A stretch of 64,000 bases of DNA from Cytidiella melzeri. Taxonomy: Eukaryota > Basidiomycota > Agaricomycetes > Polyporales > Irpicaceae. This document shows, piece after piece, positions 15,566 through 63,423 of this stretch; position 1 is the first letter of the stretch; each line of letters starts with the position of its first letter. Location: positions 141,600-205,599 of the forward strand of contig JABYQR010000040.1 in assembly GCA_022592445.1 (NCBI GenBank), in the 5' to 3' direction. The notes under the pieces are model-generated. The model was not told the DNA's origin and made no database searches. It saw only the letters and a list, made by a program, of their open reading frames with translations. A program made the position numbers and the translations under genes.

Positions 15566-16332
15566 TGTCGCGGTCGAGGATCAAATCAGCTGCCAGTAAG
15601 TTATTAGGTTTAGCAGTCATAGATAGTCTCAAGCGCCCGGAATACTTTTGTAATTTGCAAATAGCGGGTGCAGTCTTGAAAAGGAAGGTGAGTATGAATG
15701 ACAGTGACACCGTGTGGCTGGATGACAACAGTGTATCGTGCATCAGGCTCCTGAGCACGGTATGCAGTACAATGGCCACCAGCTCAAATTGAGAATTTCA
15801 TCACGGTTGTACTCAAGTATTAGCAGCGGGGCTGCAGCGAAACACGTACCTTCTTACTGCCAGCAGAAACATATTCTATTGCAGTATACACACTATTTAC
15901 AAACAATAAGGCGCAATTAAAACGATTGCTTACTATGACTCCTTTGTCACGCGTGTCATAGAATACTATTGAAATCCTGGACCCCGACTTGAACTAGAGA
16001 TAATGAAGTGCTATTTGGATGCCAACACTCAGTGATGCCAACGCTTACTTAAAGTATAGTCACAATCCACGAGTACAAAGAATTCACGGGCCGTCAGAGC
16101 CGAAAGGCTGAGCTAGCTGTTGTGGTTCTTGCTGAGACTCTTTACTTTGCAGCTGATTATATAATGTGACTTGGTGCCACGGCCAAGCATCTTTAGCGCT
16201 AACAAGGATAAGATTGAGAAAAATAATTATTTCCATAATATTCTTCGTCGTGACCATCACTAGTGGGATGTCCTCGGTGTCTCAAAGGCTACAACCATCT
16301 AGAAGGTGTCTTTCGTACTCTTGGACAGTGCT
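15566..16332. promoter_or_regulatory. TRM112/CCH1 divergent region
   Basis: This stretch separates the TRM112 and CCH1 start codons and presumably holds both promoters. The open frames in it show no family resemblance and their phases do not join to either gene. Confidence 0.4.
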
Positions 16333-19300
16333 ATGAACCACGTCGACCATCATTCGCTCACTGGGGGATCATCATCATCTGCTATAGACTTGACTGGAAC
16401 TCCTGCTGGCCTTGGCAGTTCCGTACCAACCTCCCCAGCCTTGGCACCCATAGACGGTAGGGGAAGCTTCGCGCGTCGCAGACTTAGCTGGGGTCGCATG
16501 GAGGCTACCGAAGATCCACTACGTTTTGGCTCACCAGACGAGCCGCCTAATACGAGCACACCACAACGCACGGCTACACAGCCGGGCTGGTCTATGCATG
16601 AAGACCCATTCTTTTCACCTACGGAAGAAGACGGTCCTTCCTTCACACACAACTACGGCTATCGAAGTGCAAATGGAGGGACGTATACAACCTCCCAGCC
16701 AGGTCCCTCTTCCGCGTCTTTGATCTCGTCTTCCTACCGTACTTCCGACCCTGACCTGCAGCGCGAAGATGACGAAGCACATTTGACCAGCAACATGTCA
16801 CGGCTTGGGACCCATGACGAATGGGAGCAGAATATGAACGCTGACCCAGAACGCTCCGCTGCGACTGCTCGCAGTAGGCGTACACTCCGGTATAGTGGGA
16901 CACCTTCGCCGTTGCGCAAGACTGGGAACAGATTGATGACCATCTCACGAAACCTTCGACGCGTCTCATTACGTGTGGTGAACATGGCTGGAGCAGGTAT
17001 GGATGAGCACGTCCGTCTTGCAGATGTTGAGGACGAGAAGGACGTGGGCGACGAAGATGTGAATGAGGAGGAGAAGGACTATGATGTCTTGGAGCTTGAG
17101 GACCTCTCAAAGGTCATGCCGATACGTGGGAGGACATTGGGCTTCATGGGCCCTACGAACAAACTGCGGCTTGCTCTCTTTCGCTTTCTTGTACACAGGT
17201 GAGTCACATCGTTACGCCTTGATCAACGCGTGGTACGTTGGCCAGCTACTTCGGCTCTCGAAACTACACGCATTGACCAGGTCTCATCAGCCCTGCCTAC
17301 TGACACATTTATGCTGCAGATGGACCGAGCCGATCATCCTGCTACTTATTTTGTTCAACTCTGTCGTCCTCACCGTACAAGCTGCCCGGAATATCGCACC
17401 GCCTAACGATGGCCCACCTGTGCAATATTCAGGGTTTTTTCATGGCTGGGAAGACTATGCGCTATTGAGCCTGTTCATCATCTTCACGTGGGTGACGTTG
17501 TACAGTCAACGGTAACTGTCCTGATCTTGATCCTCAGATTGGAGATGTTCGCGCGAATAGCGGTGTGTGGTTTACTGCTGGACCCAGATGTCCCTGTGTC
17601 TTCCTTATTCAACTTTGCATTCGTGCCGCCGACGGAAAGTAAAATGCCAGCGTCGACATCAGTGCCTGGTGTGTCTCGTCAGACGTCGATGGTCCACTCG
17701 ACGTCCCAGGCTGCTGGCGTATCGCGAGGACTAACACTGACCGCCAGGTTGCGACGACTGCGGAATAACATTGCGCGACCGTTCACGCTTGCACATCATT
17801 CTCTTCCGGTGACAAGCAGCTCCACGGACGAATCCAGTACCAAGAAAGTTTCTCGTGCTCGCTCAGACACAGTACAGTCAAAGACACCCATGATGGAAAA
17901 GGCAGAAAAGATCCATTCGCATCTCCGAAATCCTTCTCAGCCGACATTCTTTTCCAGAGCACTCCGCTCAGAAAACCAAGATGTCCTATCACTCCCCTTT
18001 CGGCTGAGCGTACAAACGGCGCACACTGCTATGCAGCGAAACCTCCCGTACTTGCGCCACAGTTGGACTCGAATCGATTTCATTGCTGTCATTAGCTTTT
18101 GGATTTGTATCGCACTGGCTGTCACCGGCGTTGAACATGGCAAGTATCACATCGGGATTTTTCGTGCTCTAAGCGTCCTTCGTATAACTCGGCTACTGGC
18201 AATTACTTCCGGTACCACGGTATGTCATAATGTTGTATGCATGTTCAGCGTTCTGGCTGACCACAGTTCATCTCTTCAGACAATCATGCGTTCGCTGAAG
18301 ACAGCACGGCCTCTCCTGGCTAGCGTTGCTTATTTTGTTTTATTCGCGATGATAATGTTTTCGTATGTTTTCACAGTGACCGTATAACGCCTTGAGGCTG
18401 AACCATCTGGTAGGATCATTGGCATTCAATCCTTCAAAGGTTCCTTCCGGCGTAATTGCTACCTATTACCCGTTAATGGAGAAGATGAAATAGCACTTGG
18501 ACAAAGCTGCGGAGCGTATATCGATAATGCAACACAGGTCGTCACGGGGTTTATCAATCGCTTCAATGAAACAACCAACTCCACGAAAGGGTTCGTTTGC
18601 CCTTTGGGACAGATCTGCAGGGTAAGTCATGGAACGTAAGCTATTCGAAGATATCGCTCATATGTCGTAGGAAGGATCCAGCAACCCGTTCGAAAACGTG
18701 GAAAGCTTCGATACCATCTACTACTCGGCCCTACAGGTTTTCATTGTCTCCTCAGCAAATGGAGTAAGCTACACGTTTATATATTCCAGACTCGCACTCA
18801 CCTCAGGTTCCTATAGTGGTCTCCTCTCATGTATTCGATGATGGATGCCGAGTTCTTCATTTCCTGCTTCTTCTTTATAGTCTGTGTTATCGTGCTCAAC
18901 TTTTGGCTCATCAATCTGTTCGTCGCGGTCATCACGAATACGTTCTCTGCTATTCGCAAGGACACTCACAAGAGCGCTTTCGGTGCCGCTCCGTAAGTCA
19001 AATTTTCAATTTCATTCCAACTCGCGTTTCATCGTTGCCTGTAGCATCGCACCTACTATTCAAGATGGAGAAGAAGGCTGGAAAGCTCTGGACGGCAGAC
19101 GAGTCGTAAAACGTAGTAAAGTCAAGGATTTCTACGAGAGCATCCGCTGGTGTTGGGTTGCCCTTGCGTTGGCCTCGTTGGTTCTTCAAGGTACAGGGAG
19201 CGTCGACGCAAGTGACACCCAACTGGAGATCATTGACAAAGGTGAAATGATCTTGACGGTAGTCTTCGACATTGAGATCATAATCAGGCTGGTAGCCTAT

Positions 19301-22300
19301 CTACCCGATTGGCGTGCGTTCGCTGCTCGAGGCCAGAACTGGCTCGACTTCATACTCGCCGTGGGGTCGACCGTCATACAGATTCCTGCCGTGCACAACT
19401 CCAGTGTGTATCCTTGGCTGACGATCTTCCAATTGACGAGGTTCTACCGGGTCATCTTGGAGATTCCCCGCATGAAGCCGTTACTCGTAAGTGGCACTCT
19501 GCTTCCTGCTTTACGACAGCTGATATCATGTCAGCTTGCAGTTTTCGGTAACATGTACGGTCTCGCCAATATGTCGCTGTTTCTATTCTTGATCAACTAT
19601 ATCACCGCTCTCGTGGGAGTTCAATTATTGCGAGGCGATGTAGGCCAAGATTCGACAAGGTTTATCGACTGGGGGGAAATCTTCAACGCCTTTCTAGGAA
19701 TTTATCAGATTTTCTCCTCGGAGAACTGGACAAATGTTCTTTACGACGCCGCAACGTCTGAGGTCGCGTTGAGACAAACCGCCATTGTGATCTTGTTTAT
19801 AGTCGGGTGGTTCTTTTTCGCCAACTGTATGTGTTTCGGGTTTGGGTTGACTTGTGGTGATGATGCTGATTCTTAGGCAGACATCGTACTACAGATGTTC
19901 ATCGCCGTGATCAACGAGAATTTTGATGTAGCAGAGGAGCACAAACGAAGCCGCCAGGCATCGCACTTCTGGGCCGCACAGCGCCCTGAAAAGGCCAGGG
20001 CAGCATGGGTACGGCGTCTCAACCCGTATCGATGGTTTGAAGCGAAGCCAAAGGCATTAGCGGTGGATCAGTTGCCTTCCAACCTAGTGTTACCTATGCA
20101 GAAGAGTTTGGTTCAGGACTACACCTTCAGGAAAGAAGTGCTTCGCAATATTCAGGTACGTCCAATCTTCGTGCGAATTGTTTAGTGATTATTCACTGGT
20201 AACAGGATCCCTCACGAAGAGGTAACGGCGCGCAGCATGTGTCTAAGAAGTCTATCTCTGTGCTTCAGACCTTGTTCACCGGGAAGAAAATGTCTCTCGA
20301 CGTTCCTTTAGCCACCATCAGGGGTGGCAAACGCGAATCTACTATTGTACAAGAGGGTATTGATGAAGAAACCGAACGCCACCTGTGAGTCCACTATATT
20401 CCGATTCCTCCCGGTTGCTGAATATGTAGTAGCGAGGTTCTCGCGGCATTGAATAACGAGACTGCCAATGTTGAAGACGTCAACGACATCCTTTACGAGC
20501 GCCGTGCTCAGAAGGCTGATTTCATCAGGGATCATCCGACGTACGATAGAACGTTCTGGACCTTCTCCCAGAAGAATCCATTGCGGCGCATCTGTCAGAA
20601 ACTGGTCGCACCAGCGAACGGCGAGCGGATATTTGGCGCCCCTCCTTCCCCTATTGCTCATCCAGTCTTTCAACTGGTCTTACTTGTCACCGTCATCAGT
20701 GGCATTGTTGTTGAATGGATCGCTACGCCTCTCTATCGCCGTAATTACTATCAAGCTCATGGACACATTCGGGGTTCATGGTTTGACATCGCGGAGGCTG
20801 TATTCGGTAGTATGCTTTTCTTGGAGTTTCTCATCAAGATAATTGCGGACGGATTTCTGTTCACCCCAAACGCCTACGTCCGTGGCATCTGGAATATCTT
20901 GGACTTCATGATCATGATCGGCGTTGTGGTCAATCTGACCACCGGACTCATCTTCATCGGTGGCCTCAGCCGGTTAACTCGCTCCTTGAAGGCATTGCGT
21001 GCACTCCGACTAATCACTCTCATCGACAACATGCGCTCTACCTTTGAATCATTGATCATCTTTGGAGCTGCACGAATTTTCGATGCCGCATTGTTGGCTA
21101 TCCTCTACATGATCCCCTACGCAATTTGGGGTAGAAACATCTTCTCCGGCTTGATGAACGAATGCAACGATAGCTCGGTGTCAGGTCTCAACACTTGCGT
21201 CAACGAGTACAGCAATAACGTCGTCGGGAATTCATTCTCCTATCTCGTCCCACGGGTTTGGAATAACCCATCACCGTCTACGACATTCTCCTTCGACTCA
21301 TTTCGTGCCTCACTTCTCATCCTGTTTGAGATCGTGTCCCTAGAAGGTTGGATCGACGTCATGTCTGTGGCGGTCAGCATTACCGGTCGAGACCAACAGC
21401 CACAACAGAACGTTTCGCAGGCGAACGCAATATTCTTCGTTATTTATAATTTGCTCGGCGGTGTAGTCATCTTAACGCTTTTTATCAGGTATCGTGCACT
21501 TCGCTATTGTATGTCCACCTGATTCCAACTAAGTCGTCGTCCAGTATTATCATAGGCAATTTCACATCAAGAACAGGCAGCGCACTACTGACACAGCCTC
21601 AACGCGAGTGGATTGACCTCCAGAAATTAATCATGAGGCAGCGTCCTTCGAAGCGGCCCAAAACTAGACCAGTGTGGCCGTTCCGAGCTTGGTGCTATGA
21701 CCGCGCTGTCCATAAACATGGTTGGTGGCATAGAACGATGACTGCCTTGTTCATCCTGCATGTCGTTGCTCTCATGTAAGCATCGTCACTAGCACAACAC
21801 GTGGGCTGATACTCACGTTTTCATAGGACTCAGACCTTCGCGCCGCAGGATTTCCTTGATGAACTGCGTGGTATGCAGCTTTCACTCCCTGCAGAATCAT
21901 CAGCTAATACCATCCTTTAGACGACTTCTTCCTCGGCCTTATCGTTATCTATATCGTCGACATTCTCGTCCGTCTATACGGACTGGGCTGGGGCAGCTAC
22001 AGTGCTAACGGCTGGAACCTTTTCGACATCGTTGTCGCCGGTGGCAGTCTGATCACGAATATTGTTGTACGAGTCGACGAGAGTGGCTTTGTCGTACAAC
22101 AACTCCAAAAGCTCTTCATCACCTGCATTGCATTCAAGCTGGTTCAGCGTACGAACAGCCTGAACAAGCTCTTCAAGACAGCAGTGTAAGCCCTTCTGCT
22201 CTTTTGTCACCTTCAGAGACGTTCCTCATTATTGCCATAGTGCTAGCTTACCCTCCATTTTGAGTCTCTTGAGCTTGTGGCTGGTCATGTTCCTGTTCTT

Positions 22301-46661: not shown

Positions 46662-47122
46662 GGAGCTGAATGCTGTCCCTCAAGTCGCCGTTCAGCTAGA
46701 GCATAAGTATCGTGGATTTATGATTGCCCACCTTATAGTCAGGGAAAAACGCGTAAATGAGAGAGCAAGCTGTACACGCGTACGGAGCGAGACGCGACGT
46801 CGAGGGGGTGCTAATGAGGGTGTGACATCGTGACAACACGTTACTGTTCGCACTCGTGACTTCAACAGCCTCACTCCGGGAAACTGACCGCTGCAGCTTG
46901 GAACGAGAGGTCCTCGGCGGTGCGCTCGGAGATGATGCCCACGGTGAATAGCAATGATGCAGTCTTTGCCTACAGATGCAAAAGACTGGTGTCATTGAAT
47001 GAAGCAACACTAATCCCGAACGACAACTTCGTGCATACTGATGACGATCATTATCTTCAGCTCGACCTGCAAGTGGCTCATTAAGTAGCGGATGATAAGT
47101 TATATCTACCAGAGCCTGATGG
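46662..47122. other. Intergenic region, MID1 3' side
   Basis: This separates the MID1 stop from the MYND gene start on the same strand. One 32-codon minus-strand stretch (near 46880-46975, containing AKTASLLFTVGIISERTAED) follows a good acceptor and looks protein-like, but I found no start or upstream exon in phase, so I do not call a gene. Confidence 0.3.
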
Positions 47123-48653
47123 CTATAGGCCATTGCACCACACATTACCCCATCGGTCTTGTGTAACACCGGTTACACCATCTCCCTGGTATCCTTCTTC
47201 ACCGCTATCCACAAAGCCGACACCATAGCTCATCTGTGCCGTGAACCGCGGGAGTGGACACGAGAAACCCAAGAAATAAGGACACGCCCTGTCAGCGGCG
47301 GTGCATGTCTCCAGACAAGGCAGCAGGGCCATATAGTCGGAAGGGAATGGTTGTAGCCCGGGGCTGCGTGGGGGTACTGAAGTTGGTTGGGCTTGCAGCG
47401 CAGACGAAGGGTTCGATGCATCGTTTACTTGACTGGGAGAGGGTTCACCGCATCGCGTGAACCATATTGAACAGAGCCACGCCCTATACGCGCGCTGACA
47501 GTCTGCGCAGGTTACCAGTGGGCTGTAGTAGTCTCGTCCACAAGGGTGTGTCGAGAGGGAGATCGTGAAGTTAGCCAGCGTTTCCAGCATAGGGTTTGTG
47601 ACCGTTTCTGGGAGGTTTGCGCTTGTATATGCCAAGTCAGGCAAGGGCGGTGCGCTAATTGGCACAGCGTAGTTCACCGTGGGGCAATACGGCAGCGAGT
47701 GCACAATAGGGCAAGAAAAAGAAGCTGTGGCCGGATTGTGAGGAGCTCAGGTCAAGTGAGAAACACTGAAAGTACCTGATTTGGTGACAAAGTTAATAGG
47801 CCCGCTGACCTTCGTTCCATTCTCAATCACATACGTCGTGTAGTTTGTGAGTGGTGTCAAACCATTTAGCAACCATTGCCATCGCCACCCGCCAGTATCT
47901 CTTAGCCATAGTCCATTATCCGCCGTCTCCCCCGCATTCAAGACATGACTGTCTTCTATTGTCGCCGCGCGTATAGCGCAGCCAGTACGTGGGAGTGACA
48001 CCAACTCAGACGCGGCAGTTGGGGCAATGAATATCGAGACATTAATGGGAAGAGCAGGGGCTCCATCTGGCAGAGAAATGTTGGCTGGTGGCAGAATGTA
48101 TTTCGGATATGTCGGGTCCACTATATGTGTCGTATTGCTGTACGAGAGCGGACTGGAAAATACGAGTGCTTGATTCGACGTTGTGTCGCCCAGTAGAGGT
48201 AGACCGTCGAGGATATCATGAAACGGGCCTACAACAGGCTCAGCTTCAATACTCATCATTGGTATGGCATTACTGACCGTTTTGAGATATGCCCAATTCA
48301 ATCGGCACCTCTACTGAACCTGATACTGCCAAGAATCCTCCGTCGTTGACTATACCACTCCACACGCCGAAGCCATTTTGAAGGTTGATTTCGAATGCTC
48401 GACCATCTTCCACGTCTCCCAGCCCTGGATTTGTAATAGCCGTGTCGTTTGATAGGAAGAATCTTGGTGGGGATGCTATACTTGCGCACAAAGCAACAGA
48501 TACCGAGAGGTTGACATGGGCCGCCGGCAGTGAGAATACGGGAGGATTCGGAAGGGAGTTGGTGGTGAAGTTGTAGAGTTTGTCGACTGACAATGGTTGT
48601 TGAGCATGTATGAGCTGTGTTTGAAGAAGAAGGAGAAGGGACAGTGGTAGCAT
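47123..48653 (-). CDS. MID1: Stretch-activated calcium channel regulatory subunit Mid1
   Basis: Three exons, 48653-48278, 48228-47776 and 47724-47123, total 1,431 nt and 476 residues. A signal peptide (LPLSLLLLLQTQLIHAQ) is followed by an N-glycosylation-rich lumenal domain (NLSVSVALCASIASPPRFF; LLGDTTSNQALVFSSPL). The hallmark cysteine-rich C-terminus comprises CGRDYYSPLVTCADCQRAYR, WLCSIWFTRC and CLETCTAADRACPYFLGFSC, ending DRWGNVWCNG. Mid1 is the glycosylated partner that traffics and regulates Cch1 in the high-affinity calcium influx system, used in pheromone, cell-wall and ER stress responses. It lies 23 kb from CCH1 in this window. Confidence 0.92.
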
Positions 48654-48801
48654 CCTGCGATGGTGGTCTCCCTTGTTAATGCACAGGTCGTTTAGAGGTG
48701 AAATCTAGATCAAGATCGTCTAGCCGAGAAGCCGGAACGCACTGCAAGTTTATAATAACTCTATAACGTTGAGGTCAACAATTCTCCTTTTTTTGTAACC
48801 C

Positions 48802-49837
48802 TACAGTGCCCCGCGCCAAAAATCGACATGCGTCGGGAGCGCTCAAAAATTGTCAGATTAGCTTAGATTTTTCGGATTTGGAAGGAAACTGGCCAGGCTA
48901 AGCGTAAATCTGCATTCTTTTATTTTTGGGCGTCTATTCTCAATTTTGCGTCCCAAAAAGATTAATTGGGGTCTGCAGCGACCCGCTCCCTCACACAAGT
49001 GTCCATGCCTCTTGCGCGGAAAAGAATTCGACAATTCTGATTGAGTCGCGCACAATTGCTGTAATACTGTGGCTAATGTGGAGAGTCAGGTTTCCGGTGC
49101 CTCGCTGATGGCACTTTTCAAACCGGCAAGGACTTACTCCCGGAGCTGCTCAACTCGTTTACGACAAAGACTATCCGTGCCTTTTTTCGGAAGTCGTGGC
49201 GCTAGATGGATGCATACAGGTGCGTCGGTTGCACCAGCTCACTTTTCTCTCGTTGTTGAGGCATTGTTTCCTTTGTTTCCAGCAAAGGCCTGAACAACAG
49301 ACAGGTTGAGTTTGCAGTCAAGAAGTATACTTCACACAGACGTATTCCGAACGGTATAATGATGAATCTGAGTATGCTCGACAATCCCGCCTGAGGCGGG
49401 CACGGTGAGCGGTCCACGGGGTCGTGTGCAGTGTTCGGGGGCTGTATTACTCGATTTAGTAATTAGACGCCTTCCAAATCAGGCAAATCTCAATTTGCGC
49501 GCTGTGAAATTTTTTAAGGGCCTGATCGGCGCCGCATTATGTAGTCGACTTATAAATAATCCCCCGCCAATAAGGAAATAAGTCGCTGTGGAAATAAGTC
49601 GAATTAAGCGCTGGATTATTTTGTTTGGCGGGGGATTATTCCATAATGCGACTACATAATGCGCAGCCGATCAGGCCCTAACGTCGAACGGGGGGAAAGT
49701 AATGAGTGAGCTCGACAGCTATACACCATCGTTATGCATTGCAAATGTTTTTGGTAAGTCTGGAAAGCTCATGTTGTAGTAGATACAAAAGTTAAAATGG
49801 GGCGCCAAGAGGTCGGTTTTGAGCGCGGGGCACTGTA
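48802..49837. mobile_element. Non-autonomous Tc1/mariner-like (Pogo/Fot1-type) element with TA target duplication
   Basis: The element runs 48804-49835 (1,032 bp) and is flanked on both sides by TA (48802-48803 and 49836-49837). Its ends are inverted repeats: CAGTGCCCCGCGCC on the left, matched by GCGCGGGGCACTG at the right. The similarity continues imperfectly for about 25 bases. CAGT...ACTG termini with TA duplication are the signature of Pogo/Fot1 members of the Tc1/mariner superfamily. I see no long transposase frame inside, so it is either non-autonomous or decayed. A smaller transposon is nested within it. Confidence 0.75.
49518..49678. mobile_element. Harbinger-type MITE, nested
   Basis: This 161 bp foldback element has ends GGGCCTGATCGGC and GCCGATCAGGCCC, with similarity continuing for about 55 bases on each arm (GCATTATGTAGTCG is shared). 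The arms also share AATAATCCCCCGCC and its complement next to the loop. A TAA trinucleotide flanks both sides (49515-49517 and 49679-49681). A 3 bp TAA/TTA duplication with GGGCC ends is typical of PIF/Harbinger MITEs. The loop holds two copies of GAAATAAGTCG. It sits inside the Tc1/mariner-like element and so inserted later. Confidence 0.8.
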
Positions 49838-50459: not shown

Positions 50460-50951
50460 TCACGTAGTTTTCCAGAAGTCGGCAACTGGCCCGCCACGCT
50501 TTTGCAACTCGTCACCTCGCTCGACGGGCCAGAAATCAGCCACCTCACCGCCGCGCTCTTGCAACCCGTCACCTCGCTTGATGGGCCAGAAGTCGGCGAC
50601 CTCACCACCGCGCTTAACGGGCCAGAAGTCGGCGACCTTAACTGGCGCAGCTTTGGTTCCTGGCACGAGGGAGAGTGCCGTCAAGAACACTAGCGCGGGC
50701 TGGACGTAGGGAAGTTAGCTCATCGTGCGTTATGTGTTTATATGGGTTAATACTAACAGCGCCAAGTCCGTACCTGCAGAGCAAAAAAAATCAGTCGGTG
50801 ATTCGGATATGTTTACGAGCGGAATAGAAACGCGGACTTACAGGCTCATGAATGAGGAGGCTGCGCCAAGAGACTCTGCGCTGACAGCAGAGACTGCAGT
50901 GAGGGCAGCGGTGAGGCCGCAAAGGACGCGAAGAGATGTAGATGGAGACAT
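50460..50951 (-). CDS. Kex2-processed repeat peptide precursor (putative dikaritin-type RiPP precursor)
   Basis: Three exons, 50951-50842, 50773-50758 and 50699-50460, total 366 nt and 121 residues. The second intron has a CTAAC branch-type motif and the first a long pyrimidine tract. The N-terminus is a clear signal peptide (SLRVLCGLTAALTAVSAVSA). The C-terminal 58 residues hold four imperfect repeats of the core VADFW, at about residues 64-70 (VADFWPV), 76-82 (VADFWPI), 95-101 (VADFWPV) and 114-118 (VADFW). KR follows repeats 1 and 2 and precedes the short spacer of repeat 4, and ER stands at weaker sites. This is the layout of Kex2-processed secreted peptides, including ustiloxin, phomopsin and victorin precursors. 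A UstYa homologue lies 1.5 kb upstream. The mature product is inferred. Confidence 0.75.
50463..50636 (-). repeat. Four-copy VADFW core repeat in the precursor
   Basis: Within the last exon, four repeat units encode the same five-residue core, with Pro following in the first three. Spacers GGE, GDGLQERGGE and GDELQKRGGP differ in length. Codons differ between copies (GTC GCC against GTG GCT for Val-Ala), so the copies have diverged silently while the peptide stayed constant. That pattern suggests selection on the peptide. Confidence 0.8.
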
Positions 50952-51083
50952 TTTAAGTGGTGAGGTCTCGTTAATTTGTTGGAAGAATGCTTGTGAAGTT
51001 GCTGATTGGCAAGAGAAGAGTTGCGAGTGTGCTTTGACTTGGATGGTGAAAGCGCAATGACATTCAGCACCAGTCGTCGCGGG

Positions 51084-51091
51084 TTTTTATA
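51084..51091 (-). promoter_or_regulatory. Probable TATA box of the precursor gene
   Basis: The minus strand reads TATAAAAA 133 bases upstream of the precursor start codon. No other TATA-like sequence lies closer. A strong TATA element would suit an inducible gene. Confidence 0.4.
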
Positions 51092-52482
51092 CAGATTCCT
51101 CGTCCGCTGAGACTGTTTTTGGTCAGCTATGCCACATTGACCTGACGCTGACTTTTTGGCCTAGGCTACTATAATGAAGAGCGATATGGGCAGCGCCCAC
51201 AAAGTACGGGATGGTGACACCTGTCGCCAGTTCATTCACTCTTGGCTCCTACCTCTGCAACCCTCTTCCTATCCTACTTAGGACACCCCTATAGATTTCG
51301 AGACATGATCGAAGATATCCATGTCGAAGTCACCTACTGGAACGATACCGCCTTACAACCGAAGAGAGTCTCTTTGTTCTCTCCTTGGGCCAATGTGGAG
51401 CCGCTCCTCCCACTCTTCATTCTTGCTTTATTCAGTGACTCTCCACTTGTCTCACTTTACGCCACGCATCAATTTCGCGACAATCCTGGTATGAATTGCC
51501 TTTTTGAACGTGTCTTACCTGAATGACTGCGCCCCTTAGGTTTGTGTCAAGCCCTGTGCCTGGCTGGCGATGCGAATGGGACAGTTCAATGTCAATTGTA
51601 TACGGCCGCCCTGGAATGATCGTATCCTTTACTGACAATGTCTTAGGATCAACAGCGATCTCTATCTCCCTTAGAGCGTCGCGGGTGAAATCTCCTCAAG
51701 ATGGATTATGCGGATGCTCAGAAACGTTCTACCCGGTATTGTTGATCAAGGAGCTACAGAGCCAGTTTCTGTATCTGATTCACAGTCATACATAGAAGCG
51801 AATGATACAATTTGAACATCGCTAGCGAAACAGCCAGACTAGACTTACAACCTATGTGAGTCGTTGCCTTCAAACACCGACAATGTGGTAGCAAGGGTTA
51901 GGCCGCGGGAGACGACATGAAGCGGCGTTCCAAACACCGAGACGGCCGTAAATCACGCATGAGTCAAGGGGCGAGTTTCGTACAGAGATATCGCGGCCCC
52001 AAAGAGCCGTGTTCTTCACCAGTCGACAGAGGTCGTATTGGACTAGAGCTTTGCTCTGGGTCTCAAAGCAGGCACGTCGTGTTGTAGGGTCGCCTCCTCC
52101 TATTGCGAGCGTTCAGCCGTTTCAAAGCCACGACGTGCCTGATTTTGTCGCCAATCCTCTGCATATCATGGCACGAGAGCCTGTGAGTATGCACAGAGAG
52201 TGTGTAATGATGAATTCGAACGCGTAGTTTCGGCCAGTGCGGGCTTCCCATTCATTAACAGAGACTGTAAGTCGTGATTTGAAAATACCAGGCTCGCAGC
52301 AGTCTTGATCCTATCGATCGCCGTTCGTCAGCACTAGGTTCTCTTGGGGCCTTGCTTAGCCGATTTTCATCTCATGTTTGACAGTCTGCGCCAACAGCTG
52401 CAGATGTTCTTGCTACTCGACAAATGCATTGAGCGCATACATGATAGTGGCGGTCCATGTTGTAGGTCTGAGTACATCTATT
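51092..52482. other. Region between precursor and UstYa genes, with a possible gene remnant
   Basis: About 1.4 kb holds no complete gene I can support. On the minus strand a frame near 51432-51690 reads like protein (TIIPGRPYTIDIELSHSHRQ). It follows an acceptor-like TTGAG and precedes GTCATTCAGG, but no start, partner exon or family is recognisable. It could be a decayed tailoring gene of the adjacent cluster. The rest contains short frames only. Confidence 0.35.
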
Positions 52483-53231
52483 CTACCCTAACGCTCGGGG
52501 GCGCAGTTCCCTGTTCTTCTCGACGAATCTCCGCACCTGCGTCCAATCCCGGCACCTATGCATAGTCCCGAGGCTTTGGGCCTCGTACCTAGTAACGCCG
52601 CCCATCGACTCGGATTTGATCTCCGCGGTGTGTATGAGCGTGGTGTCCGCCGAGCACAACACCATCTGTCGCATGTAGTTCAAGCAATGGTTGACATGGT
52701 GGTCAAACATGGTCCAATTCGCAGTGAAGGAGAGCGTACGATCCTTGGCCCCAACGTACGAGGTGCGAAGTGCGTCGAGGCAGTGCAGCTGATGGTACAT
52801 GCCAATGGCAAAGACGTTCTGGTTCCACTCCGAGGTGAAGCTCTCTTTCTCGGACTCCGTGGGGAGTGTACCGAGAGTCAAGAAACTAGTACCATCGCCA
52901 CCAGGGAAGAGGGACTTCCAGTCTTCATCGGCATACAGTCCGTAGACTTCGTGATCCAACCACTGAACTTCCATCGCAGTCTCTTTAACGTGAATGGGAA
53001 GTGTGTTCGGGTGGTCGTCGTTCCTGTAGACTACAATGGTGTCGCAGTGAGAGAGGTTGGTAATCCTAATGCTCGGGAAAACTTACTGTGAACTGTCAAG
53101 TCCGGTCGGAGGATGTGCTGCATGTCTTGCAGCATCCGCAACTTTAGCTTGAGTTCGTATACTTGAACACATGAGAAGATGAAGAGCATGATGGCCCCCC
53201 ACCGGAGGGCATGGACAGAGGTGAAGTCCAT
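52483..53231 (-). CDS. UstYa-like oxidase (DUF3328 family)
   Basis: Two exons, 53231-53087 and 53030-52483, total 693 nt and 230 residues. A short N-terminus leads into one membrane helix (ALRWGAIMLFIFSCVQVYEL). A lumenal domain follows with WLDHEVYGLYADEDW, then the two defining motifs: MYHQLHCLDALR and HHVNHCLNYMRQMVLCSADT. UstYa/UstYb-type proteins are copper-type or related oxidases that cyclise or hydroxylate side chains of Kex2-released core peptides in ustiloxin, asperipin, phomopsin and victorin pathways. The length (230) is typical. The gene is on the same strand as the repeat precursor and upstream of it, and is divergent from a second UstYa-like frame. Confidence 0.9.
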
Positions 53232-53498: not shown

Positions 53499-53974
53499 AT
53501 GGACACCTACCAGCCTCTCATTTTGAATCCTGAGGACATGTCGCATTACCTCGATGAGGAGGCGAAGGATTCCGTCTCTGGTGGTCTTCAGCCATCTCTC
53601 CCATGCCAGGAACAGGCCTCAACTCCACTCAGTATTGTATTCGCGTTATGCCTCGTCCTGAGTGTCGCCCTCGTCTGCGCCAATGTCTGGGCGGGCCTTG
53701 AGCTTTCAGCCTCTCTCTCAAGCGTCTTGCCCGCTCCCGATCTCATGCAACTTGGGAGAGGGGATCAATACGACGGGCTGAGTGATCAGTCTCGCCAGAG
53801 ACGTATGTGAGAATCTTCATGTCCCAATTCGCCTGTTACTAACGTACCATGTCATCTGCCAACCCGCTAGTGTACCACCATGGAAAAAGCGGGGCAACTG
53901 CGGCTTTGGATCATATTTTATTTTGAGAAGCGTCGTTGGTGGTCGAGCCTGGTATGGCAAAAGCGGCGGTTGAA
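53499..53974 (+). pseudogene. UstYa-like gene, N-terminal part only
   Basis: The ATG at 53499 opens a frame reading MDTYQPLILNPEDMSHYLD. A membrane helix (SIVFALCLVLSVALVCANVWAG) and a juxtamembrane stretch LMQLGRGDQYDGL follow, which parallel the N-terminal segment of UstYa proteins (a PxPYxGL-like motif after the helix). After a possible 5' splice site near 53808 and an acceptor at about 53871, only 33 residues continue to a stop near 53974. Neither HxxHC motif is found downstream. I read it as a truncated paralogue sharing a 267 bp promoter region with the intact UstYa gene. It could instead be an unrelated single-pass protein. Confidence 0.45.
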
Positions 53975-59611: not shown

Positions 59612-62600
59612 TCATCGCCTCGATGAACTAAGACCAGGGACTCTACCATCTGCCCACTCGAGGTCAGATGCAATAGCTTCTGTGATGTTCTCCAACGGTT
59701 TCCAAGGAATGGAGTCGAAGAGTGCTTTGGGCAATTTCTGGGGTGCATTGGTATGTCTGGCGTGGAACTCTGCAATGCTCTCTTTCGCATTGGTCAGATT
59801 TACTGCAGGTTCCCACGTTACGTCGCCTTCTCCATAGCCTTTCCATTTGACTAAGTACTGCATTTGCTTCCGATAGATCCGACTGTCTAGGATCTTCTCA
59901 ACTTCATAGACTTGTTGATCATCTACTATGATTGGTGCTGGTGGTTCCGGTATGAGGCCGTTTACTTCGTTTCCTCTGTATGGAGATAGCCGTTCAACAT
60001 TGATGTTGTCATGAATACGATATCCGGATTTGAGTTTGATCCGATACGTATGTTCACCGGTTTTCTGAAGAACTGTGAATGGACCAAGCTGTCTAGGCCC
60101 TAGCTTGTCAGACTGCTGATGTACTTTGACGTTCTTGGAAGACAACCACACGAGGTCCCCTTCCTTGAAGACTGGAGTAGCTCTGCGGGTGTATCCGGAA
60201 GCTTCGGCCATCTTTTCCTTAGATAAGCGTGAGGCAGCTTCGGCTTCTGTCCGAACCTGTCTGAGCTTTTCTAGACGTGCATCTAGATTCGGCATTCGGC
60301 TGTGACGTCCGACTGGTATGGTAAAATCTGGTAGGTACCCGTACATGACTTCAAACGGAGAGTGTTGTGTAGATGAGTTGACACGAGAGTTGATGGCGAA
60401 TTCAGCCACTGGGATGTATTCTGCCCAATCATCTTGTCGTTGATCAACAAATAGTCGTAGAATCTTTTCTACTTCTTGGTTGACTCTCTCCGTTTGACCA
60501 TTAGCCTGAGGATGATAGGCTGTAGTCATAGCGCCAGTGATGCCTAGTCGTTTATACAACGCTTGCATCACTCGGGCCGCGAACTGAGGTCCTCTATCAG
60601 ATATGAACTGTCGGGGAATACCATGGAGCCTAAAGACTTCTTTGATGTGGAGGTCGGCTATGCCGTCAGCTGTAACAGTAGACTGGGTTGGGATAACATG
60701 TGTTTGTTTGCTGTACAAGTCTGTGTACACAGCAATCATGTCAAAACCGTTACTGCGTGGGAGTGGCCCGACTAAGTCTACACCAACCACCTGCCAAGGT
60801 CCATCTGGTACTTCGATGGGCTGTATTGGGACAACCGGGTGCTGTGCCGGTTTGGTTCGCTGACATTTGTCACATCCGAGGACGTATTGTTCTACAAATG
60901 ATGCCATGCGAGGCCACCAATAGTGTCGTGTAACCAGTTCTAGAGTTGCATGTTTGCCGGGATGTCCTGCCGGTAACGCATCATGGCATCGTCGTACAAT
61001 CTCCCTGCGGACTTCCCGATCCTTTGGAATGTACAGCTTCCCTTTGTAGTACACCAGCCCATTGTCTTCTTCCCACTCAAGTCCACCATCAGTCAACTTT
61101 CGGGGTCCATCCTTTCTAAGTTTGGCTAGTCCCTGGACTACCTCTGCTTCTCGAATACTGATGTCCTTAATTCGTGACTCTAGCGGATCTGACTCCGGAG
61201 TACTTGAGGCGGCTATTGTCTGGAAGTATTCGGGTTTCAGTACAACTTGTTCCTTGTTGTCTGATGCATCTAGAACTTCCAAGGTTCTGACTCGGGATAA
61301 TGGGTCCCCTTGAGTAAGGGTCTTTCCGGGCTTGTGTGTTAACACAAAGTCAAACCGACTGAGGTACAAAGACCACCGAGCTTGTCGTCTAGACAGGTCC
61401 TGGGCGGTTCTCCAATACTGCAGATTCTGATGATCTGTGATGATCTCAAAGGGCTCGGGTAATCCTTCTAGATAGTGACGCCAATCTTCGAGAGCTCTGA
61501 TGATAGCGAGCATTTCTCGATCATAGATCTCGTAGTTCCGTTCAGCTTCGGCCATAGACTGAGACCGAAATGCTACAGGGTGCCATTGTCCATCCTCTAG
61601 TTTCTGCAGTAGAACTCCTCCAGTTGCAAAGCCAGACGCATCAACTTCAATACGTGTGGGACGATCAGGTTCCCATGTTACTAGAATAGGTTCCTGAGTG
61701 AACACATCTTTGAGCATCTGAAAGGCGTTCTGCTGTGCTTCTCCCCATTTCCAAGGTTGGTCTTTCTTGGTGAGATCATGTAGGGGACGGGTATGCCGTG
61801 CAAAGTCCTTGATGAAACGTCGGTAGAAGTTGGCAAATCCAATGAAGCCGCGCACATCACGGAGGTTCTGTGGTACCGGCCAGTTGGTGATAGCTTCTAT
61901 TTTACCCGAGTCCATACGGATCTTTCCGTTACCGATGATTAGACCTAAGTACTCGACTTGTGACTGTTCAAATTCGCATTTCTCGGGGCGAAGGTACAGG
62001 TCATTGGCTTCAAGTCTTGCTAGTACTTCATGGACAAGTTTACGATGTTCCGTGATGTCTGAGCTGAAGATGAGGATGTCATCCAGGTACACAGAGACCT
62101 TTCCTTCCGCGATGAGATCAGCAAAGATGGAGTTCATCATTGCTTGAAACGTGGCTGGAGAATTGGTCATGCCAAACAACATCACCTTAGGCTCGAACAG
62201 CCCTCGGTTTGTCACAAATGCACCCTTCCATTCGTCATTTTCTTTGATCCGAATGTTATGGTAACCCCATCGTACGTCAAACTTAGTGAAGATTTTGGCT
62301 TGGCGAAGTCGATTGGTAATGTCTGATACCAAGGGGAGTGGGTAGCGGTTTTTGATTGTGATGTCATTCAACCGTCGATAATCCTGAACAAGCCGAAGCT
62401 TGCCATCCTTCTTCTTGACGAAGAATACCGGTGAGGCCATGGGCGACTTGGATGGGACAATATATCCTTTCGCTAGGTTTTCCTCAATAAACTTGTCTAA
62501 CTCCGCTTGTTCATTCGGAGACATGGGGTAGACCTTGGATCTGAACATCTTTGGGTTCTCTGTTAGATCAATCGTGTGATCCCAGGGTTGGTGCTCTGGG

Positions 62601-63367
62601 AGGCGCTGTGATGCTTCTTCGGAAAAGACTTTCTGGTGTCTGCGGTATTCTTCTGGAACCATCTGTTCGAATGTCTGTTGCTCTTTGGATTGATGGGCCT
62701 TAGCCGCAATATCTGTAGAGTACGTATAGCTAGCACAGGACCAAAGCTCTTCTTTGGTGTCCTGAATGATACCGGTTCTGAGCCAGGCTCGTCTCTGCTT
62801 CCGATTGGCTGTGATAGACTGGAAGGGTTCGAAGTCTTCTTCGGCTTCCAGCTCCATTTCTCCGGTAGCCCAATTGATCTTGGGGTTTGCTTTGCGAAGC
62901 CAGGGTAGGCCTAGAATGCAATCTTCTGGTCCGATGTCTGTGACCAAAAATGTTGCGTTTTCTTTGATAGCCCCAACTTGTAGTTCGAGCTCTGCTCTGT
63001 GTGTGATACGTCCTCCTTGATTTAGAGTCCCATCGATGTTGTGGAGTGGGATCTGTCTTTCTAAGGGGACCGTACGTACTCGGTGCCGGTTGACAAAGTC
63101 TTGACTTAGGAACAATGCGGTGGCTCCTGAGTCAATCATAGCTTTGATGCCCTTTTCTCTGAACACTCCTTTGAGCGTAATTGGAACTCGGAAATGCATG
63201 CTAAGCGGATCTATTTCAGGCACTATGCAAGACGACAAAGTTTCGTAGTAGTTATACATGTCGTTAAATAAAGCTGAAGGCGGCGAATCAGGTTGCTGAG
63301 CGGGGCGGGTAATTACTACAGGGGGACTAAAAACTGTGTCCGTGGGGGAATCATCATTGTCCTCCAC
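59612..63367 (-). CDS. Ty3/Gypsy chromovirus Pol polyprotein, intact frame
   Basis: One frame of 1,251 residues covers a complete pol. A retropepsin-like protease has the motif IDSGATALFL (about residue 78). The reverse transcriptase has YLDDILIFSSD (about 425), and RNase H starts at IEVDASGFATGG. The integrase has an HHCC zinc finger (HDALPAGHPGKHATLELVTRH, then CDKCQRT) and a catalytic core with VGVDLVGPLP, FISDRGPQFA and YHPQANGQTERVNQEVEK. A C-terminal chromodomain reads YEVEKILDSR and YLVKWKGYGEGDVTWEPA. Chromodomains target insertion to marked chromatin. No stops interrupt it, so the insertion is young. The gene is from a mobile element, not the host. Confidence 0.95.
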   Translation of the reverse strand: MEDNDDSPTDTVFSPPVVITRPAQQPDSPPSALFNDMYNYYETLSSCIVPEIDPLSMHFRVPITLKGVFREKGIKAMIDSGATALFLSQDFVNRHRVRTVPLERQIPLHNIDGTLNQGGRITHRAELELQVGAIKENATFLVTDIGPEDCILGLPWLRKANPKINWATGEMELEAEEDFEPFQSITANRKQRRAWLRTGIIQDTKEELWSCASYTYSTDIAAKAHQSKEQQTFEQMVPEEYRRHQKVFSEEASQRLPEHQPWDHTIDLTENPKMFRSKVYPMSPNEQAELDKFIEENLAKGYIVPSKSPMASPVFFVKKKDGKLRLVQDYRRLNDITIKNRYPLPLVSDITNRLRQAKIFTKFDVRWGYHNIRIKENDEWKGAFVTNRGLFEPKVMLFGMTNSPATFQAMMNSIFADLIAEGKVSVYLDDILIFSSDITEHRKLVHEVLARLEANDLYLRPEKCEFEQSQVEYLGLIIGNGKIRMDSGKIEAITNWPVPQNLRDVRGFIGFANFYRRFIKDFARHTRPLHDLTKKDQPWKWGEAQQNAFQMLKDVFTQEPILVTWEPDRPTRIEVDASGFATGGVLLQKLEDGQWHPVAFRSQSMAEAERNYEIYDREMLAIIRALEDWRHYLEGLPEPFEIITDHQNLQYWRTAQDLSRRQARWSLYLSRFDFVLTHKPGKTLTQGDPLSRVRTLEVLDASDNKEQVVLKPEYFQTIAASSTPESDPLESRIKDISIREAEVVQGLAKLRKDGPRKLTDGGLEWEEDNGLVYYKGKLYIPKDREVRREIVRRCHDALPAGHPGKHATLELVTRHYWWPRMASFVEQYVLGCDKCQRTKPAQHPVVPIQPIEVPDGPWQVVGVDLVGPLPRSNGFDMIAVYTDLYSKQTHVIPTQSTVTADGIADLHIKEVFRLHGIPRQFISDRGPQFAARVMQALYKRLGITGAMTTAYHPQANGQTERVNQEVEKILRLFVDQRQDDWAEYIPVAEFAINSRVNSSTQHSPFEVMYGYLPDFTIPVGRHSRMPNLDARLEKLRQVRTEAEAASRLSKEKMAEASGYTRRATPVFKEGDLVWLSSKNVKVHQQSDKLGPRQLGPFTVLQKTGEHTYRIKLKSGYRIHDNINVERLSPYRGNEVNGLIPEPPAPIIVDDQQVYEVEKILDSRIYRKQMQYLVKWKGYGEGDVTWEPAVNLTNAKESIAEFHARHTNAPQKLPKALFDSIPWKPLENITEAIASDLEWADGRVPGLSSSRR

Positions 63368-63423
63368 TTCTTCTATGTAGGTTTTCCAGAGGGACTCGAG
63401 GGTGCGGTTTCACCTGGAGTCCT

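Follow-up and report, generated by a model that had tools for sequence, protein, structure and literature searches.

A Kex2-type repeat precursor gene beside a UstYa/DUF3328 gene in the agaricomycete Cytidiella melzeri

Introduction

Proteins of the DUF3328 (UstYa) family are class-defining for the dikaritins, and a double HxxHC motif is regarded as their marker (PMC12048977; this and the following papers are cited from excerpts). The links in ustiloxin and phomopsin are Tyr-based, and victorin carries a Phe link (PMC9233826). Kex2-processed repeat proteins (KEPs) have been surveyed by Le Marquer 2019 (PMC6339444) and by Umemura 2020 (PMC7329392). The latter study counted 7878 KEPs, 22% of them with a DUF3328 gene no more than 15 genes away, and found DUF3328 genes to be enriched adjoining KEP genes across fungi; in Basidiomycota such a neighbour was present for 103 of 1680 KEPs (6.1%). 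In its type P-3 the repeat contains W accompanied by P; four of the seven members have a DUF3328 gene within 15 genes, and the genera represented are Fonsecaea, Cladophialophora, Galerina, Psilocybe and Coprinellus. Moreover, 16 UstYa-like genes, probably for dikaritins, have been described in Pleurotus (PMC8893723), and in four agaricomycetes the KEP peptides that were detected proved linear, with minimal modification (Vogt 2022, PMC9769878). In the PMC literature searched there was no match for DUF3328 together with Agaricomycetes, nor for Cytidiella melzeri.

Here we analyse a 64-kb stretch of DNA (hereafter the window; positions 141600-205599) that forms the end of contig C335 in the 49.7-Mb assembly of C. 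melzeri, which has 731 contigs. An earlier note on this DNA had proposed a dikaritin-type RiPP cluster and had held that a repeat precursor paired with a UstYa gene would be new for an agaricomycete. The general arrangement is already known and not new, and the claim of novelty was too strong, given the 103 basidiomycete cases counted by Umemura 2020 and the Pleurotus genes of PMC8893723.

As in the loci for ustiloxin, phomopsin, asperipin-2a and victorin, a KEP-like precursor gene adjoins a gene for a DUF3328/UstYa protein with two HxxHC motifs. Whereas the aromatic core residue of dikaritins is Tyr in ustiloxin, phomopsin and asperipin and Phe in victorin, all the cores here are free of Tyr and have Phe and Trp; two unit boundaries are ER, and no other tailoring gene was noticed nearby. 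Judged from its sequence, the layout appears to work like that of a dikaritin locus. We do not file it as one, because the product is so far only predicted and a Tyr-free core with irregular dibasic sites is unusual. Compared with the KEPs of other agaricomycetes in the excerpts of PMC9769878, PMC6339444 and PMC7329392, the precursor is alike in being putatively secreted, in its repeated short cores with KR sites and in cores mostly confined to few species, but its VADFW core was found in no other species by the searches made and a UstYa gene lies next door. It also resembles type P-3 of Umemura, likened by description only, in having W with P in the repeat and a DUF3328 gene often near.

Results and Discussion

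The precursor gene and its repeats

The features of the precursor gene are given below (positions in the window).

50460..50951, minus strand: KEP-type precursor gene, 121 aa, three exons, identical to NCBI BC835DRAFT_1413363
50951-50842, 50773-50758, 50699-50460, minus strand: precursor exons, from open frames and splice sites
50842..50951, minus strand: exon 1, with the putative signal-peptide leader MSPSTSLRVLCGLTAALTAVSAVSA and the next residues, from hydropathy and 86% identity to the paralogue on contig C727
50460..50636, minus strand: core region with four VADFW units (50622-50636, 50586-50600, 50529-50543, 50472-50486)
50952..51240, minus strand: promoter side, with a partial match upstream of the paralogue

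The two introns measure 68 bp (GTAAGT..CTGCAG) and 58 bp (GTTAGT..GTCCAG). By a simple custom site score, the three-exon model ranked first among 71 enumerated splice choices that keep the repeat frame. All 121 residues of the predicted precursor are the same in the C. melzeri protein BC835DRAFT_1413363 (P0001) of NCBI, and this identity supports the three-exon splicing put forward in the earlier note, as far as an annotation can. The N-terminus fits a signal peptide, judged by eye and by hydropathy. A second hydrophobic stretch is found at residues ~37-56; in the window copy it is as strong as the putative signal peptide, and in the paralogue somewhat weaker.

The four VADFW units start at residues 64, 76, 95 and 114. 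Dibasic KR is present at residues 71, 83 and 109 only, and two of the five unit boundaries, at 90 and 102, have ER in place of a dibasic site. Thus, strict Kex2 cutting would not part all four copies, and the predicted products would be GGEVADFWPI, a piece of 24 residues that contains the third copy, and GGPVADFWKTT from the C-terminus. The calculated [M+H]+ values are 1090.5204 for GGEVADFWPI, 1076.5047 for GGEVADFWPV, 1178.5840 for GGPVADFWKTT and 1136.5258 for GDEVADFWVV of the paralogue. The genome encodes a Kex2-type P domain. The description of a signal-peptide protein with four core repeats and dibasic spacers was therefore right as to the four cores, and the spacers are dibasic only in part.

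The self-repeat score of the precursor after the signal peptide is 137. None of 1000 shuffles reached this value (mean 22, highest 53), and it is the top score of the 23 frames that pass the repeat-scan filters in the window and the fetched stretches. The units differ mostly by synonymous changes, with pairwise dN/dS of 0.02-0.15 among three 10-codon units (few sites). The cores are thus repeated and flanked by Kex2 sites, though only partly regularly, and we conclude with high confidence that the precursor is a KEP, its paralogue being marginal. The protein might instead be a secreted protein of other use in which the KR sites are incidental, as the presence of only three of them, the second hydrophobic stretch and the paralogue would suggest; the latter has two VA[DE]FW units only, and its self-repeat score of 31, which 9 of 1000 shuffles attained, marks a weak repeat, marginal alone. 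However, the unit spacing, the KR at unit ends and the conservation of VA[DE]FW all fit a KEP, and we consider another use highly improbable.

Relatives of the precursor were sought among 5.8 billion protein sequences, in a search that needs shared 5-residue words, and in the C. melzeri genome, where only the best candidates are scored. Among 388 candidates, two C. melzeri proteins were obtained at E<=10, one being the precursor and the other a paralogue of 103 aa. The core exon, exon 1 and the promoter each found two places in the genome; about 146 bp of the 181-bp promoter query (51060-51240) match the other place, upstream of the paralogue, at 77%. The degenerate pattern VA[DE]FW occurs at 16 genome places, six in the two KEP genes and ten as scattered singles, as compared with six for the reversed-pattern control. 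No further KEP paralogue was found by protein, motif or promoter search. For the window precursor against the paralogue, exon 1 has a dN/dS of ~0.25 and the core block one of 0.24, both from few sites. The word-limited protein search found the VADFW core in no protein of another species, and in the excerpts of PMC literature searched the only match was to work on Toxoplasma biomarkers, so that the claim of a new core agrees with the searches made.

The UstYa protein

Two further genes lie to the right of the precursor.

52483..53231, minus strand: UstYa/DUF3328 gene, 230 aa, exons 53231-53087 and 53030-52483, identical to NCBI BC835DRAFT_1269619 (P0003)
53499..53926, plus strand: small membrane protein gene, 119 aa, exons 53499-53802 and 53871-53926, from likeness to its paralogues (other copies L020, L017, L022)

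The UstYa gene is on the same strand as the precursor at a distance of ~1.53 kb, and the contig stops 10.8 kb to its right. The predicted protein matches PF11807 (E 1.2e-21) and has a long N-terminal helix and two HxxHC motifs; the earlier description of a complete UstYa with these features, 1.5 kb off on the same strand, was accurate throughout, the 230 residues being equal to the NCBI record. Its AlphaFold model (m4ff06392353e) has a pLDDT of 83.3 and a pTM of 0.68. Foldseek gave 29 matches to this model in the PDB at E<=10, none of them at E<=0.001, and a sequence search gave no relative of solved structure at E<=1.

At E<=0.001 the protein search yielded 44 proteins, among them the record of the query itself and another two from C. 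melzeri, and those relatives that carry an organism name are presumably all from Agaricomycete genera. The alignment holds 42 of the 44 rows, the short P0038 and P0041 being left out. Of the 42, 41 show two HxxHC motifs; P0045 has none. In the tree, four close C. melzeri copies and five further rows (JGI/other sources) are separated from Dentipellis, Artomyces, Peniophora and Pholiota with a support of 100/99, and the inner branching order is resolved only for C216 with C727. We hold with high confidence that the window copy is intact and belongs to the UstYa family.

The small membrane protein

The small membrane protein has a single span (judged by eye), carries the motif R.D.YDGLSD.SR and has no Pfam match above cut-off; the NCBI model P0050 has other ends. 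Its gene is divergently upstream of UstYa at all four related loci, and the own-genome search found no fifth copy. In the window copy the final 12 residues are unlike those of the paralogues. A truncated UstYa gene was considered and rejected, since the small gene has the same short length in each of the four paralogues and gives no Pfam match above cut-off.

Seven of 2182 candidates in the protein search were relatives, namely four from C. melzeri, one from Irpex lacteus, one labelled ena, and P0052 (lgn). P0052 and the UstYa relative P0005 each lie on a contig of 10,931 bases from the same source, and this equality of size and source indicates that the two are very probably neighbours there too. 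The Irpex lacteus relative is on a contig of 449,310 bases, from which no UstYa was present among the listed UstYa relatives. As far as the protein, Pfam and literature searches tell, both the core sequence and this membrane partner appear to be new.

Related loci in the genome

PF11807 matches at least eight places in the genome. The close relatives, at the window and on contigs C727, C271 and C216, have 60-72% identity to the window protein (main matches), and the other four places have at most 34%. Three of the close loci share two further genes, the second with no Pfam match, in common with the UstYa/small-membrane pair.

C727, 63.8-66.7 kb: alpha/beta-hydrolase (PF00561) and multi-span membrane gene
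C271, 32.8-38.2 kb: alpha/beta-hydrolase (PF00561) and multi-span membrane gene
C216, 43.0-43.8 and 54.3-55.7 kb: alpha/beta-hydrolase (PF00561) and multi-span membrane gene

A search of the 64-kb window at E<=1 gave no match to the hydrolase or to the multi-span protein. It could be that a larger cluster of UstYa, small membrane protein, hydrolase and multi-span membrane protein is decaying in the window, at a contig end rich in transposons, where the UstYa may no longer serve a pathway; the missing pair of genes, the divergent end of the small membrane protein and a Ty3/gypsy-type element at the end of the contig would agree with this. Both UstYa exons are open, however, both HxxHC motifs are intact, and dN between the window and C727 copies (0.17) is well below dS (0.82), which makes decay improbable.

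Two mobile elements were noted in the window.

59615-63409, minus strand: chromodomain-bearing Ty3/gypsy-type element close to the end of the contig
49517-49679: short MITE-like element whose ends are inverted, lying between the Mid1 gene and the precursor gene

Pieces of the window at 58.9-64 kb recur on C727 and C271. The MITE-like element has 37-nt arms (89% complementary) with 89 nt between them, and a second, inner 16-nt pair. At 46700-48700 the window carries a Mid1 gene (PF12929), about 25 kb from a multi-domain ion-channel-like gene at 16300-22000, which by eye resembles Cch1. Cch1 and Mid1 are the two subunits of one calcium channel.

Does the UstYa act on the precursor?

A repeat precursor lies beside the UstYa at the window (~1.53 kb); at the three paralogous loci, it lies 18 kb from the UstYa at one and was found at neither of the other two. 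On C727, frames for an MFS protein, a ubiquitin hydrolase, a GNAT protein and a pro-kumamolisin stand between the KEP paralogue and the UstYa. No precursor relative was found in the stretches read of C271 (15001-46339) and C216 (43001-58091), where contig ends limit the scope, or of C35 and C401. The repeat scan covered the window and 18 stretches with a score of at least 32, at least two dibasic sites and a frame of at least 30 aa; it misses intron-split repeats, and at this threshold it omits the known C727 paralogue (score 31). It brought up no other KEP-like frame next to a UstYa. In a rescan of the C727, C271 and C216 stretches at a score of at least 27, 61 of 985 frames passed, with the C727 paralogue included but within noise. 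On C271 and C216 no row looks KEP-like by eye, in a scan too blunt for a two-copy KEP with another core. Since the scan ranks the known paralogue within noise, its evidence against a link between precursor and UstYa is weakened. A family scan of six window and four C727 frames showed no tyrosinase, S41 peptidase or methyltransferase beside the pair.

The two detected KEP copies are both near a UstYa of the close group, although by a post hoc analytic estimate only ~0.6% of the genome is within 20 kb of one of the eight PF11807 matches. When the window is compared with C727 44001-94000, leaving aside the repeats of 54.4-54.9 kb and the transposon pieces of 58.9-64 kb, the two have only three genes in common: those for the precursor, the UstYa and the small membrane protein. 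The synonymous divergence (pS) between the two loci is 0.352 for the KEP, 0.498 for the UstYa and 0.557 for the small membrane gene; the KEP value is below those of the UstYa (z -2.1) and the small membrane gene (z -2.5), which are weak statistics. Moreover, the UstYa/small-membrane pair has the precursor on its opposite flank at C727. Thus, the link is not plainly the result of one joint duplication, and we do not favour as its simple cause that precursor and UstYa were recently duplicated together, as far as such weak statistics go. To judge from the sequences, the precursor may have been copied later, on its own, which cuts both ways for the link. The two KEP promoters and the UstYa/small-membrane intergenic regions have no 9-base word in common, and one 8-base word is shared at C216.

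These data also bear on the possibility that the KEP yields linear secreted peptides, that the UstYa and its small membrane partner act elsewhere, and that the genes became neighbours by an accident of genome rearrangement. The unit kept at four loci is the UstYa with the small membrane gene and not the KEP, the hydrolase and multi-span genes accompany that pair at three of the four, and the lower synonymous divergence of the KEP at the same loci looks as if it had moved separately. Moreover, the KEP peptides detected in agaricomycetes were linear (excerpts of PMC9769878). The closeness of both KEP copies to a UstYa of the close group, in places rare in the genome, goes against an accident. 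Linear peptides beside a UstYa that acts elsewhere are a substantial possibility, to which we give somewhat better than one chance in three.

As for the dikaritin-type cluster of the earlier note, what stands is that a precursor of the KEP kind adjoins a UstYa in an agaricomycete; the action of UstYa on this precursor can only be inferred, and the C271 and C216 loci with no relative found in the stretches read, the unrelated genes that part the two on C727, the ER boundaries, the Tyr-free cores, the linear peptides of other agaricomycetes and the promoters with no common 9-mer speak against it. On the evidence of the sequences, it is plausible, at about an even chance, that the UstYa modifies the VADFW peptide.

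A possible pathway

The gene structures, the repeats, the KR sites, the intact HxxHC motifs, the adjacency of the two genes and a Kex2-type P-domain in the genome are directly established. From these we would propose, at just under an even chance, a small peptide locus in which a Kex2-cut precursor gives cores that are oxidised by the adjoining UstYa. The precursor would enter the secretory pathway through its putative signal peptide; Golgi Kex2 would then cut after the three KR, and once the basic residues had been trimmed off, the three products predicted above would be left. The membrane-anchored UstYa would oxidise the cores, either released or still joined, possibly together with the small membrane protein. 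The likeliest site of oxidation would be the conserved Phe-Trp pair, through a cross-link, a hydroxylation or a desaturation. The function of the signal peptide, the cleavage and above all the action of UstYa on the peptide are the inferred parts of this scheme.

A further reading, which we regard as unlikely, is that the UstYa and its Pfam-less single-span partner form a two-part membrane enzyme, encoded by a fixed divergent pair and recruited in C. melzeri to a Tyr-free Phe-Trp peptide. If true, its chemistry would be unlike the Tyr-based links of ustiloxin, phomopsin and asperipin.

Conclusions

Should the UstYa not modify the VADFW core, C. melzeri would provide one more lineage-restricted linear KEP. 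If it does, this locus would offer a UstYa/KEP pathway of a basidiomycete that has a Tyr-free core and is open to test. The recurrent small membrane protein is a concrete candidate for an accessory subunit of UstYa enzymes.
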